From positions 1 to 64,000 of the forward strand of contig NJBO01000009.1 in assembly GCA_005223075.1 (NCBI GenBank): a stretch of DNA of 64,000 nt, read 5' to 3'. The notes beneath the pieces were generated by a model. That model worked only from the letters and a program-made list of their open reading frames with translations. It did no database searches and had not been told where the DNA came from. The translations under genes and the position numbers were made by a program. Shown in pieces: positions 47,435 through 52,672 of this stretch. The stretch comes from a candidate division TA06 bacterium B3_TA06 (GTDB lineage Bacteria > Hydrothermota > Tepidihabitantia > B3-TA06). The first letter of the stretch is position 1; each line of letters starts with the position of its first letter.

Positions 47435-49432
47435 TCAGTAGTTAATGCTCAACCCGGCGTAGAACCTTCTGGGAGCAGTTGGATAGTCGAGGTCGTTCAG
47501 CCCGCCGAAGTGTGCGGCGGTCTGATCGTTGGTAAGATTCTTCACACCGATCTTGACAGTAAGGAGATTAAACAGCTTCTGGGAGACGGTGGCATCGAGT
47601 TTCAGGGAAGGCCTTATGATCTTTTCGATCACCCCGATCTCAGGATAGGTCGAGTAGTCCGGGTAGTAGTTGATGCGCTCACCGGTCCATGCGACAGCGG
47701 TTTCGATCTTACCCCCCTGCCAGGCGTGGATTGCAACGTCTCCTTTCAGGATAAGCGGCGGGATGAACGCGGCCTGACGCTCGACCGTGTCCACCTCGGT
47801 CTCTGTGCCGCTGGAGTAGGTAAGGATAGTACGTGTTTCTGTGGCATGGTTGTAGGCAAGACCCAGGGAACCGGAGAAAAGACCTTCTGCCACTTGCCAG
47901 GATGAAGACAGCTCTCCGCCCCAGATCGTCACCCGATCCAGGTTCTCAGGCCGCCAGATACCACCCTCGAAAGGCAGCCAGGAGATCATATCCGTTATAT
48001 CCTTCCACGAGCCCGCAGCGCTTAACTTAAGGAACCGGAACGGCCTGGCATCAGCTGAGAGCACAAAACTCTGAGAGCGCTCAGGCACCAGATCGGGATT
48101 GCCTTGCGAGTACTCGTCTGCAGGCCAGAACAGGTCGTTCAGGGTGGGGGCACGGAACGATCGCCCGTAAGCCGCGGCTATCTTGAGCTTTTCCGGGATG
48201 GGAACCACGCTCAACCCCAACTCGGGTGAGAAGAAGCTCTCGTTACGGTCTGAAAGATCCAGTCGTGCCGCGGCGCTGGGGGTAAAGACACCCAGTTCGG
48301 CCAGTAGCTCGGTCCAGATGCCGAGGTGGGAATCGTCGGCGTCCCAGGAATAATCCCAGATGACGGTATCGGCTGCAGAGTCGGTATAGATACCTCTGAC
48401 CTGTAGCATCTCCTTCTCAATCGAGAGTCCGCCGGCAAGCCTGAACCGCCGGGCAAGCTGTGCCGAAAGCTGCAGATCACCGCCTAGCCGAAGGTCGTCG
48501 TATTGGTTGTTTACAAGTTCGGTATACGAACCTTCCCCCCACCGCCCTTGACGCGGCCAATCGTAGATAAAATCCTGGTTCACCGCGTATAGGTTCAGGT
48601 AGCCGGAGAAGGCTTGCTTTCCGAACGAGGTTTTCAGATTCCCGCGCATGAGCTTGTCGGCCTGGCGGTCGTAAAGGGAGTAAACCAGGGAATCGCCGAA
48701 GATCGGCGGCACGAAGGCGGTATCTGATGTGTCAGGTGCAGGTCCTGGCACACCCATCTGGCGCCAGGTATAGGCGGTGTTGAGTTCGATGTTGAATGCA
48801 TCGGTGGGAGCGATCCAGAATCCTACCCCCCCACTATACCGCATTACATCGTCGTTGTGCCGGAATCCAGGATTGGTAAGGTAGGAACCGGTAACACGTG
48901 CTCCCAGTATTCCCCAATTGATTGCTCCTCGTGCACTGGTGTTCATGCCCCACTGATCGGTGGCTGTAAAACGCGCAGCAAGCCCATCCTTCTTCGATGG
49001 AATAACGTTTACCACGCCTCCGATGGCTGCAGACCCGTAAAGCGCGGATAGGGGACCCTTAACGATCTCCACCCGGTCGCCAGGTGCCATAGGAATAAGG
49101 GAGAGATCTATCACCCCGTCGCGCCGGGAGTTCATGTGTACGCCGTTGTAAAGCACCAGTACTCTGGATGCCAGGATTCCACCCAGGATTGGAAAGGCGG
49201 AGTGTCCCTCATAACCGTATGATCGCACGTCTGCAGATACGCTTTGTGCAAGAACATCGGTGAGGTCGGTGACCTCGTCTTCTTCTACTACTAAGACCTC
49301 CACCGGCCATGGTGAGAGTTCGGCAGGAAGTGAGAGCCTGGTTGCGGTGACGATAACCTCGGGCATCTCGTAGACCGGCAGCTCGTCGGGCTGGGCAAAA
49401 AGCGCCAGACTGATAGCAAGGGCCTTGACCAT
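47435..49432 (-). CDS. btuB: TonB-dependent outer-membrane receptor, cobalamin type
   Basis: The 665-residue protein has a short signal peptide (MVKALAISLALFA), a TonB-box-like VIVTATR at 27-33, a plug domain (about 35-160 with VEIVKGPLSALYGSAAIGGVVNVI, quoted here in part) and a long barrel ending SINY. TonB receptors import metal-chelates and vitamins across the outer membrane using energy from TonB-ExbB-ExbD. The leader carries a cobalamin riboswitch, so vitamin B12 or a corrinoid is the likely cargo. The frame opens at 49534, inside the riboswitch, but the ATG at 49432 has a GGAGG site and begins the signal peptide, and I use it. Confidence 0.8.
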   Translation of the reverse strand: MVKALAISLALFAQPDELPVYEMPEVIVTATRLSLPAELSPWPVEVLVVEEDEVTDLTDVLAQSVSADVRSYGYEGHSAFPILGGILASRVLVLYNGVHMNSRRDGVIDLSLIPMAPGDRVEIVKGPLSALYGSAAIGGVVNVIPSKKDGLAARFTATDQWGMNTSARGAINWGILGARVTGSYLTNPGFRHNDDVMRYSGGVGFWIAPTDAFNIELNTAYTWRQMGVPGPAPDTSDTAFVPPIFGDSLVYSLYDRQADKLMRGNLKTSFGKQAFSGYLNLYAVNQDFIYDWPRQGRWGEGSYTELVNNQYDDLRLGGDLQLSAQLARRFRLAGGLSIEKEMLQVRGIYTDSAADTVIWDYSWDADDSHLGIWTELLAELGVFTPSAAARLDLSDRNESFFSPELGLSVVPIPEKLKIAAAYGRSFRAPTLNDLFWPADEYSQGNPDLVPERSQSFVLSADARPFRFLKLSAAGSWKDITDMISWLPFEGGIWRPENLDRVTIWGGELSSSWQVAEGLFSGSLGLAYNHATETRTILTYSSGTETEVDTVERQAAFIPPLILKGDVAIHAWQGGKIETAVAWTGERINYYPDYSTYPEIGVIEKIIRPSLKLDATVSQKLFNLLTVKIGVKNLTNDQTAAHFGGLNDLDYPTAPRRFYAGLSINY

Positions 49433-49499
49433 ATAAGCCTCCAAGTTGTGACCGTTAGGAAAACCACACGCCCATCCTGGCCCGGGATGCTCGTGCGGG

Positions 49500-49692
49500 G
49501 TCTTGGCGGATAGGTCTCCTGGCTTACGGATCATTCTTCGCCTCCAGCCTTCCCATCCTCAAGGCTTAAACCTCGATTTTAGGACAGTGGCTACGACTGT
49601 TGAAGTCGTTTCGGAGGCTCAGTCCCCGATCACAGTGGCGGCACCGCGGCCGATTCTCACGGCCTTCCCTGACTTCCGCCGTCTAGTCCAAA
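49500..49692 (-). promoter_or_regulatory. Cobalamin riboswitch
   Basis: Read on the minus strand, the leader has the conserved parts of the B12 riboswitch in order: GGGAAGGCCGTGAGAATCGG, the GCCGCCACTGTGA core, a GTAGCCACTG segment, GGATGGGAAGGCTGG, and the B12 box AAGCCAGGAGACC at 49513-49525. Flanking GGCGG/CCGCC can close the basal stem. B12 binding should switch off expression of the receptor gene downstream. The likely expression platform is the stretch between 49440 and 49500, which also includes the ribosome site. Confidence 0.9.
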
Positions 49693-49702
49693 TTGTTATG
49701 AA

Positions 49703-49752: not shown

Positions 49753-49780
49753 GCGGGCCGACCTAAAGGTCGGCCCCTAC
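49753..49780. repeat. GTAGGGGCCGACC palindromic repeat
   Basis: An inverted repeat GGGCCGACCT/AGGTCGGCCC with flanking GCG and CTAC. Related copies are at 51415-51442, 63323-63356, 63599-63632 and 63639-63690. Confidence 0.7.
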
Positions 49781-49803: not shown

Positions 49804-49831
49804 TTGACATCTTTCATTCTTTGACTATACT
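49804..49831 (+). promoter_or_regulatory. Promoter of the Fic gene
   Basis: TTGACA (49804-49809) and TATACT (49826-49831) are 16 bp apart, about 110 nt upstream of the gene; the untranslated leader is filled with the GGACAT iterons. Confidence 0.8.
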
Positions 49832-49965
49832 TTGGACATGGGTGTGGACACAAATCTAGACATTTTTAACAAAAATTGCTCATTAAGTCAAGTAAATAGG
49901 TGATTTCTTTGTGACATATCGTTGGACATCTTAGGAGACATTTATGAGGACATACGAGAGGACAC
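49822..49965 (+). promoter_or_regulatory. Two arrays of 12-bp GGACAT iterons at the Fic promoter and start
   Basis: Units of 12 bp that begin with a version of GGACAT stand at 49834, 49846 and 49858 (with a weak unit at 49822), and again at 49912, 49924, 49936, 49948 and 49960. Spacing is exactly 12 in both arrays. The first array begins at the -10 box and the second covers the ribosome site and start codon. This layout is what an autoregulatory operator would look like; the binder could be the winged-helix end of the Fic protein. Confidence 0.6.
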
Positions 49966-51119
49966 ATCCCTGGATAAAATTCAGCCTGGATTTGCATCAG
50001 GCTGATCATAAGCTTTGGCTGGCACTTGGTGAGGTACAAGCCAAATGTGAGTATCTGGCCGGTTTGCCTTTGCAGCCAGCAACAGCTGGTAGACTTCACA
50101 AGATTTATTTAGCTAAGGGGGCATTGGCTACCACAGCTATTGAGGGTAATACCCTATCTGAAGAAGAGGCTTTGAAACTGGTTGATGGAGAGTTGACGCT
50201 TCCACCTTCCAAGAAGTATCTCGCTCAAGAAGTAAAGAACATTATCCAAGCTTGCAATTTGCTCTCTGAGGAGTTGTTGGTCGGAAAGGATACTGACGAC
50301 CTTTGTATTGATAAAATCAAAGGGTATAACCGACTTGTTCTTAAAGACCTTGAGCTGGCAGAGGAAGTCATACCTGGAGAAATACGAGACTACCCAGTGG
50401 TGGTCGCTCGGTATCAAGGAGCACCTCTCGGAGATTGCGAATATCTTTTAAAACGTCTGTGCGATTTTCTTAACGAGGAAAGATTTCGTGCTCCCAAAGG
50501 CGACGAAATAGTCTTTGGATTAATCAGGGCGGTACTTGCTCATCTGTATTTGGCTTGGATCCATCCTTTCGGTGACGGCAATGGACGAACAGCCAGACTG
50601 ATGGAGTTTCAGATTCTACTTGCCGCTGGAGCGCCAACATTGGCGGTTCACTTATTGAGTAATCACTATAATCTCACCCGCAATGAGTATTACAGGCAAT
50701 TGGATCAAGCTTCTCAATCAGGTGGTGAAGTCTTTCCGTTCATTAAATATGCAGTCCGCGGGTTCTTAGATGGTTTAAACGAACAGATGCAGGTTATTCA
50801 GATACAGGTCTTGGACGTATCCTGGAGAGACTACATCCATGGAGCATTCAAAGACAAGCCTGGTGATGTGGCGAGGCGACGTCGTCATCTGGCGCTGGAC
50901 CTCTCTTACAAGGAAGAACCTGTGCCTGTGTCAGAGATTCGACATATCAGTCCCCGCTTAGCCGAAGCTTATGCGGGAAAGACTGCCAAGACAATCACAA
51001 GAGACGTAAACGCACTTGTTGAAATGGATCTTGTAGAGCCAACCCCAAAGGGTATACGAGCGAAGCGTGAGAAGATGCTGGCGTTCCTCCCTAAGCGAAG
51101 GACTGACTCCGTTGAATAA
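49944..51119 (+). CDS. Fic-domain AMP-transferase with helix-turn-helix C-terminus
   Basis: The 391-residue protein has an N-terminal helical region with the inhibitory motif TTAIEGN (Glu67), the Fic core with HPFGDGNGRTAR at 207-218 (catalytic His207), and a C-terminal winged-helix-like end (KTITRDVNALVEMDLVEPT). Such class II Fic proteins transfer AMP to a target and are kept inactive by their own inhibitory helix; the HTH end suggests DNA binding and self-control. The ATG has a GGAG site. Codon use and lower GC than flanking genes suggest an accessory gene. The target is unknown. Confidence 0.88.
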   Translation: MRTYERTHPWIKFSLDLHQADHKLWLALGEVQAKCEYLAGLPLQPATAGRLHKIYLAKGALATTAIEGNTLSEEEALKLVDGELTLPPSKKYLAQEVKNIIQACNLLSEELLVGKDTDDLCIDKIKGYNRLVLKDLELAEEVIPGEIRDYPVVVARYQGAPLGDCEYLLKRLCDFLNEERFRAPKGDEIVFGLIRAVLAHLYLAWIHPFGDGNGRTARLMEFQILLAAGAPTLAVHLLSNHYNLTRNEYYRQLDQASQSGGEVFPFIKYAVRGFLDGLNEQMQVIQIQVLDVSWRDYIHGAFKDKPGDVARRRRHLALDLSYKEEPVPVSEIRHISPRLAEAYAGKTAKTITRDVNALVEMDLVEPTPKGIRAKREKMLAFLPKRRTDSVE

Positions 51120-51205: not shown

Positions 51206-51239
51206 AGATCGCCGCGTCGCTGTGCTCCTCGCGATGACG
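51206..51239 (-). repeat. Partial dispersed repeat, TCATTGCGAGGAG family
   Basis: Read backwards it begins CGTCATCGCGAGGAG and ends GGCGATCT, a shortened copy of the element at 63185. Confidence 0.55.
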
Positions 51240-51414
51240 TTAACTATGGGCATGTAGCACAGGCTCAGCGTGCCCCGGTCGGGTACATCTGCGGAAAGAA
51301 TTTAAATGAGGCAACCGATACCTGTTTACTCCGTCACCGTCGTCCTTCGGTCAAGTGAATTCTTATATGAGGCAACAGGGCCCTCCGCACTTGATGGGGA
51401 GGTGGGGGGTAATC

Positions 51415-51442
51415 GTAGGGGCCGACCTTCAGGTCGGCCCGC
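51415..51442. repeat. GTAGGGGCCGACC palindromic repeat
   Basis: GTAGGGGCCGACCT is followed after two bases by AGGTCGGCCCGC, the same inverted repeat as at 49753 in the opposite orientation. Confidence 0.7.
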
Positions 51443-51472
51443 AACCCTTGACACCACCGTTGAATGGTTGTC

Positions 51473-51500
51473 TTGACATACTCACCACCGAAGATAGAAT
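51473..51500 (+). promoter_or_regulatory. Promoter of the DUF3800 gene, near-leaderless
   Basis: TTGACA (51473-51478) and TAGAAT (51495-51500) are 16 bp apart; the ATG at 51509 is 8 nt past the -10 box, leaving a leader of at most a nucleotide or two. Confidence 0.7.
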
Positions 51501-51508
51501 AACAAACA

Positions 51509-52213
51509 ATGCCACATAGATTTACTTTTGAAGTCTATTGCGACGAAAGCCGTCAGGACCTTCTCAGCTCCCAGTCTCCTGGTCCCTATAGATATACATT
51601 AATTGGAGGCGTATGGCTACCCGCCCAAATGCGGCAAGAGATCAAGGAAAAGATATTAGCAATTAAAAGGGATTTCCGATTCAACCGAGAGATTAAATGG
51701 AAGGATGTAGCCCCGTCGAGTTTGCCTTTCTTCGAGGACCTTATCGATCTTTTCTTCGCCAAGGGGGAAGAATTTGGCTTCAGGTGTATAGTTGTTGACA
51801 GCACCAAATTCGACTTAAAAAGATTCCATGAAGAGGATGCCGAGCTTGGTTTTTATAAGCTCTACTACCAATTGCTCAAAAACGGATTCCATCCTGGATT
51901 TGCCTACAGGGTTTTTTTAGATTACAAGATTAACAGGCTTCCCAGCAGGGTTAAAGTCTTGGAGAAAGTTCTAAAGAACGCATGTCCTGAGGTTGAATCC
52001 ATTGAGCTTCAGGCCCTTCCTTCGGCAGAGGTCGTATTGATTCAACTGGCCGATGTTCTTCTGGGAGCTACCGGATACAAGCTGCACCTTCTCAAAACGA
52101 GCAGAGCAAAGTTAGCTATCGTTGAACGAATAGAGCGCCATCTGGGGCGTGAGATAAAACCTACGAGCCGAGAAGAAAAGAAGTTCAACGTCTTCAAAAT
52201 CCGGTTACGGTGA
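51509..52213 (+). CDS. DUF3800 family protein
   Basis: The 234-residue protein begins FEVYCDESRQ, the acidic opening (Asp12, Glu13, Ser14) of DUF3800, an RNase H-like fold, followed by YTLIGGVWLP, a KWKDV segment, a conserved VFLDYK strand and VLIQLADVLLGATGYKL near the C-terminus. DUF3800 proteins are common in mobile and defence-associated neighbourhoods and are thought to be nucleases, but no reaction is established. It has its own promoter and is followed 6 bp later by a second small gene. Confidence 0.72.
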   Translation: MPHRFTFEVYCDESRQDLLSSQSPGPYRYTLIGGVWLPAQMRQEIKEKILAIKRDFRFNREIKWKDVAPSSLPFFEDLIDLFFAKGEEFGFRCIVVDSTKFDLKRFHEEDAELGFYKLYYQLLKNGFHPGFAYRVFLDYKINRLPSRVKVLEKVLKNACPEVESIELQALPSAEVVLIQLADVLLGATGYKLHLLKTSRAKLAIVERIERHLGREIKPTSREEKKFNVFKIRLR

Positions 52214-52219
52214 TCTCCG

Positions 52220-52672
52220 TTGAAGGAATACCCTCCACTTGTATATTACAGAGGGATAGACGAGTACCGGAACCATTACATCCACAAGTACTGTAACAGG
52301 AAAATCTACACCTTCTTCGGTATGAGGGTATTTTTCCCTCGAGGCAGTTTCGAACATCTATTCTATGAAAGTAGCAAGAAACTTCCTGATCATAAAGATA
52401 CTTTCGCCAGGGATAGAGCGGAAAGGATTGATTGGATTGCCGCCGCGCTACAAGACAGAGACGCAGAAATCTTTCAAGGTTGGGATAGAGTCAAGAAACG
52501 AATAGATCCAACCAGGCTTGTTTTCGTGGTACAATCCAACTATATTGTTGTAGTGAAAAAGGAGGATTGGGATACGGGTGTAATAAGAACGGCTTTTCTT
52601 GCAAAGCCGTGGCCTTTGCAAATGATAAAGTCTAAACCGCGGGTACAGATTCCAAAGAAAAAAGACCGCTGA
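52220..52672 (+). CDS. Small protein, possible PBECR-type nuclease/toxin
   Basis: The 150-residue basic protein starts at a TTG 6 bp after the DUF3800 stop, with no good ribosome site, so its translation is probably coupled. The central stretch FARDRAERIDWIAAALQD and the later paired strands (RLVFVVQSNYIVVVKKED, RTAFLAKPWP) resemble the PBECR (Barnase-EndoU-ColicinE5/D-RelE-like) nuclease families found in phages and polymorphic toxins. I am not certain of this. Its last residues, PKKKDR, are written by the terminator of the small RNA on the opposite strand. Confidence 0.5.
   Translation: MKEYPPLVYYRGIDEYRNHYIHKYCNRKIYTFFGMRVFFPRGSFEHLFYESSKKLPDHKDTFARDRAERIDWIAAALQDRDAEIFQGWDRVKKRIDPTRLVFVVQSNYIVVVKKEDWDTGVIRTAFLAKPWPLQMIKSKPRVQIPKKKDR

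Follow-up and report, generated by a model that had tools for sequence, protein, structure and literature searches.

Arrays of 12-bp direct repeats, one spanning the start codon, as the likely operator of a solitary class II Fic gene

The window, as we call the whole stretch of 64,000 nucleotides that was analysed, carries a gene for a Fic protein of 391 amino acids whose nearest homologs are encoded in candidate division WOR-3 / Stahlbacteria genomes. Two arrays of short direct repeats lie at the start of this gene, which has a divergent TonB-dependent receptor gene on one side and a candidate defence pair on the other. The features of the locus are given here in the coordinates of the window.

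47435-49534, minus strand: TonB-dependent receptor gene, divergent from the Fic gene
49491-49698, minus strand: cobalamin riboswitch RF00174 (Rfam, 75.8 bits), on the strand of the divergent gene; the sole Rfam match
49804..49809, plus strand: predicted -35 box TTGACA (sigma-70-like score 14.2), hexamer invariant in the relatives L002-L004
49822..49827, plus strand: weak unit TGACTA, in 12-bp phase with the upstream array
49826..49831, plus strand: predicted -10 box TATACT, hexamer invariant in L002-L004, overlapped by the weak unit
49834..49863, plus strand: upstream array, units GGACAT (49834), GGACAC (49846) and AGACAT (49858)
49912..49965, plus strand: start-codon array, units TGACAT (49912), GGACAT (49924), AGACAT (49936), GGACAT (49948) and GGACAC (49960)
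49944..51119, plus strand: Fic protein gene, 391 aa, presumed array binder (PF02661, 4e-11; PADLOC SoFic, 1e-54; AlphaFold2 model)
50130..50147, plus strand: class II inhibitory helix motif TTAIEG, residues 63-68 (conservation in 22 homologs)
50562..50597, plus strand: Fic catalytic motif HPFGDGNGRTAR, residues 207-218 (conservation in 22 homologs)
50865..51080, plus strand: predicted C-terminal winged helix, residues 308-379 (secondary structure of the AlphaFold2 model; consensus KTxKTIxRDL)
50985-51023, plus strand: predicted recognition helix, residues 348-360 (AlphaFold2 model)
51509-52672, plus strand: DUF3800 gene and partner, PADLOC candidate defence pair PDC-M04A/B, directly after the Fic gene

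The TonB-dependent receptor is probably a btuB-like B12 receptor, since a cobalamin riboswitch precedes its gene. The start of this ORF at 49534 falls inside the riboswitch and is placed too far upstream. A perfect 10-bp inverted repeat (GGGCCGACCT/AGGTCGGCCC) is located at 49755-49776 between the divergent TonB and Fic genes. On the other side, the DUF3800 pair was probably gained or lost recently, because it is missing at the same place in the near relative L003, where the alignment jumps from window position 51227 to 52634.

The Fic protein matches PF02661 with 44 bits against a cut-off of 24. The inhibitory motif [S/T]xxxE[G/N] is present N-terminal to the Fic core as T63-TAI-E67-G68, and T64, A65, E67 and G68 are invariant in 22 homologs, with T63 and I66 nearly so. 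The catalytic motif HPFx[D/E]GNGRxxR is likewise there with an intact HPFGDGNGR; H207-R215 and R218 are invariant and T216/A217 at least 90% conserved in the same homologs. Judged from its motifs, the protein is a class II Fic and a predicted AMPylator. It matches the PADLOC SoFic profile over residues 24-378 (E 1.3e-54) and scores 40.7 bits against the 550 bits of the NCBIfam SoFic equivalog cut-off, so we do not class it as SoFic proper. An AlphaFold2 model built from 22 homologs (mean pLDDT 87) has CbFic2, CccR, Dde_2494, FICD and SoFic as fold neighbours and predicts a C-terminal winged helix-turn-helix (wHTH) composed of helices 308-321, 329-334, 337-342 and 348-360 and strands 364-367 and 370-373, with fold matches to 7xux, 8cil and 3eqx.

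The initial annotation had listed eight GGACAT-like words in constant phase within each array, and direct reading of the sequence places all eight there, with a 12-bp step that is exact in both arrays. It had called these iterons exact, which is true of the spacing but not of the words: the unit consensus is (A/G/T)GACA(T/C), and GACA alone is constant across the units of the window. The repetition is far beyond chance: five units follow one another at 12 bp, and 5000 dinucleotide shuffles of this 360-bp region never gave a chain of more than two. Between the arrays the distance is 54 bp, a value not divisible by 12. Homolog comparison supports the weak unit at 49822, also noted earlier, which reads GGACTA in L002, L004 and L097.

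Conserved spacing in related genomes had been proposed as a check on the operator idea, and the outcome is strongly positive. We fetched 80 homologs by protein patterns, without the operator as a query (52-93% identity over the best segment), and counted on 81 upstream regions including that of the window. GGACA words lie 12 bp apart 104 times, 24 bp 37 times and 36 bp 9 times; a distance of 55 bp, the gap between the arrays, occurs 11 times, and no other distance up to 60 bp is seen more than 3 times. Pairs at 12 bp are present in 56 of the 81 regions, against 0.065 in shuffles. The words point one way, with GGACA 262 times on the coding strand and TGTCC 15 times. Arrays are kept in 67 of 81 loci (41 have both, 14 only the start array and 12 only the upstream array), and these 67 homologs span 23 named phyla; many are metagenome bins in which individual phylum labels may err, which hardly affects the breadth. 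The distance from one array to the other varies widely, yet it equals 12n+5 to 12n+7 in 32 of 42 homologs; as these homologs are related to one another, the nominal p-value overstates the regularity.

Arrays are absent in 14 of the 81 loci, and nine of these belong to one clade of Caldilineaceae (Chloroflexota). Neighbouring genes are common to 10 of the 11 members of this clade, and here the gene was probably inherited vertically while the arrays decayed. Several Caldilineaceae loci, among L026, L027, L042, L046, L047, L065 and others, have a different conserved upstream stretch around GAACGCTTTAGAATCTCTTCAG. Beyond the main set, more distant prophage homologs (38-52% identity) have 12-bp GACA pairs (L274, L276, L282, L290, L291 and L292), and the prophage homolog L275 has five units. 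A remote Fic gene, L100 (27% identity), is preceded by four GACA words in a strict 12-bp step, of which the fourth forms the TTGACA of a -35 box (L100 1150-1360; G107:C2 about 97228-97298). As a lead, this suggests that the operator type may reach beyond the Fic subfamily of the window. A search for close relatives of L100 found none, and among the more distant WOR-3 Fic genes an array was seen by eye only in L100. No 12-bp arrays were found upstream of six remote plasmid Fic homologs or in Gordonia phage Kiko.

The predicted promoter of the Fic gene is TTGACA-16-TATACT, with a spacer of 16 bp. Given its position, the weak unit lies over the -10 box and the first strong unit at about +1, while the start-codon array spans the ribosome site, the ATG (49944) and codons 2-7. 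The earlier description of repeats that run from the -10 box to the start codon is thus borne out. Promoters in this work are consensus predictions, and the sigma factors of the hosts may differ from the consensus used. Among 24 homologs with a strong predicted promoter and classifiable placement, the upstream array is downstream of the -10 box in 10 (window included); in six its last unit is the -35 hexamer itself, and in eight it lies entirely upstream of the -35 box. Two homologs with a strong predicted promoter have mixed placement.

What do the arrays do? There is virtually no chance that they are accidental, low-complexity sequence or the spill-over of a coding repeat (RTYERTH), although 12 bp equal four codons and two units fall within codons 2-7. 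This explanation is refuted by shuffle statistics, codon bias and the phylogenetic footprint. The same phase statistics hold in the non-coding part alone (-200..-12), where 12-bp pairs are present in 37 of 81 regions against 0.03 in shuffles. In the overlapping codons the constraint acts on bases and not on residues: choice is forced to ACA, the form of 48 of 51 Thr3 codons and 58 of 72 Thr7 codons compared with 22% ACA in gene bodies, AGG and CGG together make up 54 of 64 Arg2 codons (34% in gene bodies), and third codons for amino acids other than Thr still mostly end in A (TCA, AAA, ATA). In the footprint, which aligns the stretch ahead of the ATG in four close WOR-3 relatives counting the window, 27 of 28 GACA-core columns show no change compared with 43 of 102 other columns (p=6e-8), and a fifth, more distant relative (L097, G061:C37:29906-31063, minus strand) keeps the start array. 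The L097 Fic gene carries one in-frame TGA. We give only a very small chance to the arrays acting in the mRNA, as a protein or RNA site that blocks translation in a CsrA-like manner or through autogenous RNA binding by Fic. The start array does overlie the ribosome site, CsrA sites have a GGA core, and the 10 upstream arrays downstream of the -10 box would be transcribed. However, in 14 of the 24 homologs the upstream array coincides with the -35 box or precedes it and would be absent from the mRNA, no unusual RNA fold (z = -0.04) and no Rfam match were found in the leader of the window, and the 12-bp phasing is strict over coding and non-coding sequence alike. An array outside the transcript has to work as DNA. 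Since so many upstream arrays would be untranscribed and the leader has no special fold, the target is most likely DNA, and the start-codon array would serve as an operator or roadblock rather than as a translational site. The initial annotation had a multimeric regulator on the repeats block both transcription and translation initiation, a proposal that is only half supported; a separate translational block is neither needed nor supported.

The next question is who reads this DNA. A scan of the 2.41-Mb host genome (42 contigs) for three GGACA units in 12-bp steps, allowing one mismatch, hits nothing but the Fic locus. Across the phylum (147 genomes), the Fic loci of G000, G057, G058, G061 and G107 are among the exact fourfold GACA/12-bp matches, and most of the other matches look like minisatellites, simple tandem or coding repeats. 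Viral contigs gave 120+ matches to fourfold GGACA; the 80 loci examined had no Fic gene and were mostly near-identical tandem or coding repeats. No neighbouring ORF family of at least 60 aa is common to array-bearing loci of different lineages: the recurring large families beside the Fic gene are confined to the Caldilineaceae clade, and the upstream TonB gene is common to the WOR-3 relatives by common descent. The reader of the arrays should therefore travel with the Fic gene itself. A separate host regulator is very unlikely. It is true that binding by Fic is a prediction and that direct repeats are bound by other regulators too, but the unit of array and gene is found in 23 phyla with no common neighbour, which makes a host factor of equal specificity in all these lineages implausible, and the host genome has no other array for such a regulator. 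The Fic protein, with its predicted wHTH, would then be the only candidate and the likely binder, as the sole gene that travels with the arrays. The suggestion that its winged helix binds here has become much stronger, and Fic is still the presumed binder. We consider it unlikely that Fic binding to the arrays serves mainly to activate the promoter or to gate the enzyme's own activity, with the DNA as allosteric ligand or parking site. DNA binding through the HTH dimerises and stimulates CbFic2 (PMC10628234), and in some loci the array precedes the -35 box. A start-codon array and arrays over the -10 and -35 boxes suit repression better, however, and CccR represses.

Other candidates were rejected. 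The sole small ORF seen over the upstream array (ATGGGTGTG..., about 21 codons), a possible upstream antitoxin, stops early in L002 as judged by eye. A separate antitoxin gene of the kind found in type II toxin-antitoxin modules is not indicated among neighbouring ORFs of at least 60 aa, none of which recurs in array-bearing loci of different lineages. The array as the end of a mobile cassette or as a recombination site was discarded, as no second copy lies 3' of the gene.

We thus favor autorepression and think it likely that the two arrays together form the Fic operator, that Fic itself is the ligand and that it represses its own gene by head-to-tail binding. One C-terminal winged helix would read each 12-bp unit (core NGACAT, usually GGACAT). 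Because all units point one way, the bound protomers would form a head-to-tail row, presumably cooperatively, over the promoter and the start region. On B-DNA a 12-bp step turns each protomer about 50 degrees from the previous one. In the window this row would cover -10/+1, and in many relatives the -35 box or sequence further upstream, so that RNA polymerase would be excluded or blocked and a potentially toxic AMPylator kept low. Repression is the likeliest effect, as the arrays cover the -35 box, the -10 box, +1 and the start; activation or looping would also suit the eight homologs in which the upstream array precedes the -35 box. We infer all three elements, Fic as the binder, head-to-tail cooperativity and the repressive outcome. 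Besides these eight homologs and the inverted-repeat operator of CccR, two further observations count against autorepression of this kind: the half-step offset between the arrays is not accounted for by a simple filament, and Caldilineaceae orthologs have a similar recognition helix although most of their arrays are lost.

Regulation of fic expression by Fic-HTH fusions was proposed early on (Kinch 2009, PMC2686095), and a Fic/wHTH autorepressor is already known. CccR of Yersinia pseudotuberculosis, a class II Fic, uses its C-terminal HTH to occupy the promoter of its own gene near -35/-10 and so represses that promoter; its operator is one 10-bp inverted repeat (AGATAATCAT) with a 26-bp spacer (PMC9755527). 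The window Fic is likewise a single-protein class II Fic with a C-terminal HTH, and binding to its own promoter is predicted. Unlike CccR, it has 12-bp direct GGACAT repeats, eight in the window, that run over the start codon; an inverted-repeat operator with a 26-bp spacer is not what we see, given direct repeats in one orientation (262:15). CbFic2 of Coxiella burnetii is similar as a Fic protein with a wHTH (8cil is the best fold match) and binds DNA; the assays cited used randomised DNA and no operator is described in the available part of the report (PMC10628234). SoFic (PADLOC PDLC03963; 3eqx) is also a class II Fic-wHTH protein and acts in anti-phage defence (PMC12249575). The E. coli Sofic has a 47-aa antitoxin, AS1, downstream, which we count as a difference from the window Fic. 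For the proposed arrangement on DNA, the wHTH proteins BldC and RdfS are the closest likeness: their protomers bind head to tail and cooperatively, BldC on direct repeats (PMC5859096, PMC11963761). BldC repeats are 9 bp, however, neither protein is a Fic enzyme, and the mechanism proposed here is an analogy. In the literature we found no precedent for direct-repeat binding by a Fic protein, and searches of open-licence papers gave no description of a Fic operator built from GGACA words or 12-bp direct repeats. What is new is the predicted 12-bp direct-repeat operator that is embedded in the start codon and travels with a solitary gene.

A further-reaching version of the autorepression model, which we regard as doubtful, is that a solitary, horizontally moving Fic uses the array as operator and allosteric scaffold at once, with filaments that silence the gene and fix one oligomeric state. 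If so, losing DNA binding, for instance in infection or stress, would derepress the gene and alter AMPylation at once, and the locus would be a one-gene toxin-antitoxin-like circuit with DNA as the antitoxin. For the family, sequence comparison by itself predicts which DNA would be bound by a large Fic-wHTH subfamily in at least 23 phyla, for which our search found no described wHTH ligand. The operator is strict (GGACA every 12 bp, on one strand), enough to find and annotate such genes, and array DNA could be used directly in co-crystals and to find out if AMPylation is controlled by DNA binding. The conserved arrays suggest that the enzyme carries its own off-switch, and the locus illustrates how a potentially toxic gene that travels alone may bring its own brake into a foreign host.
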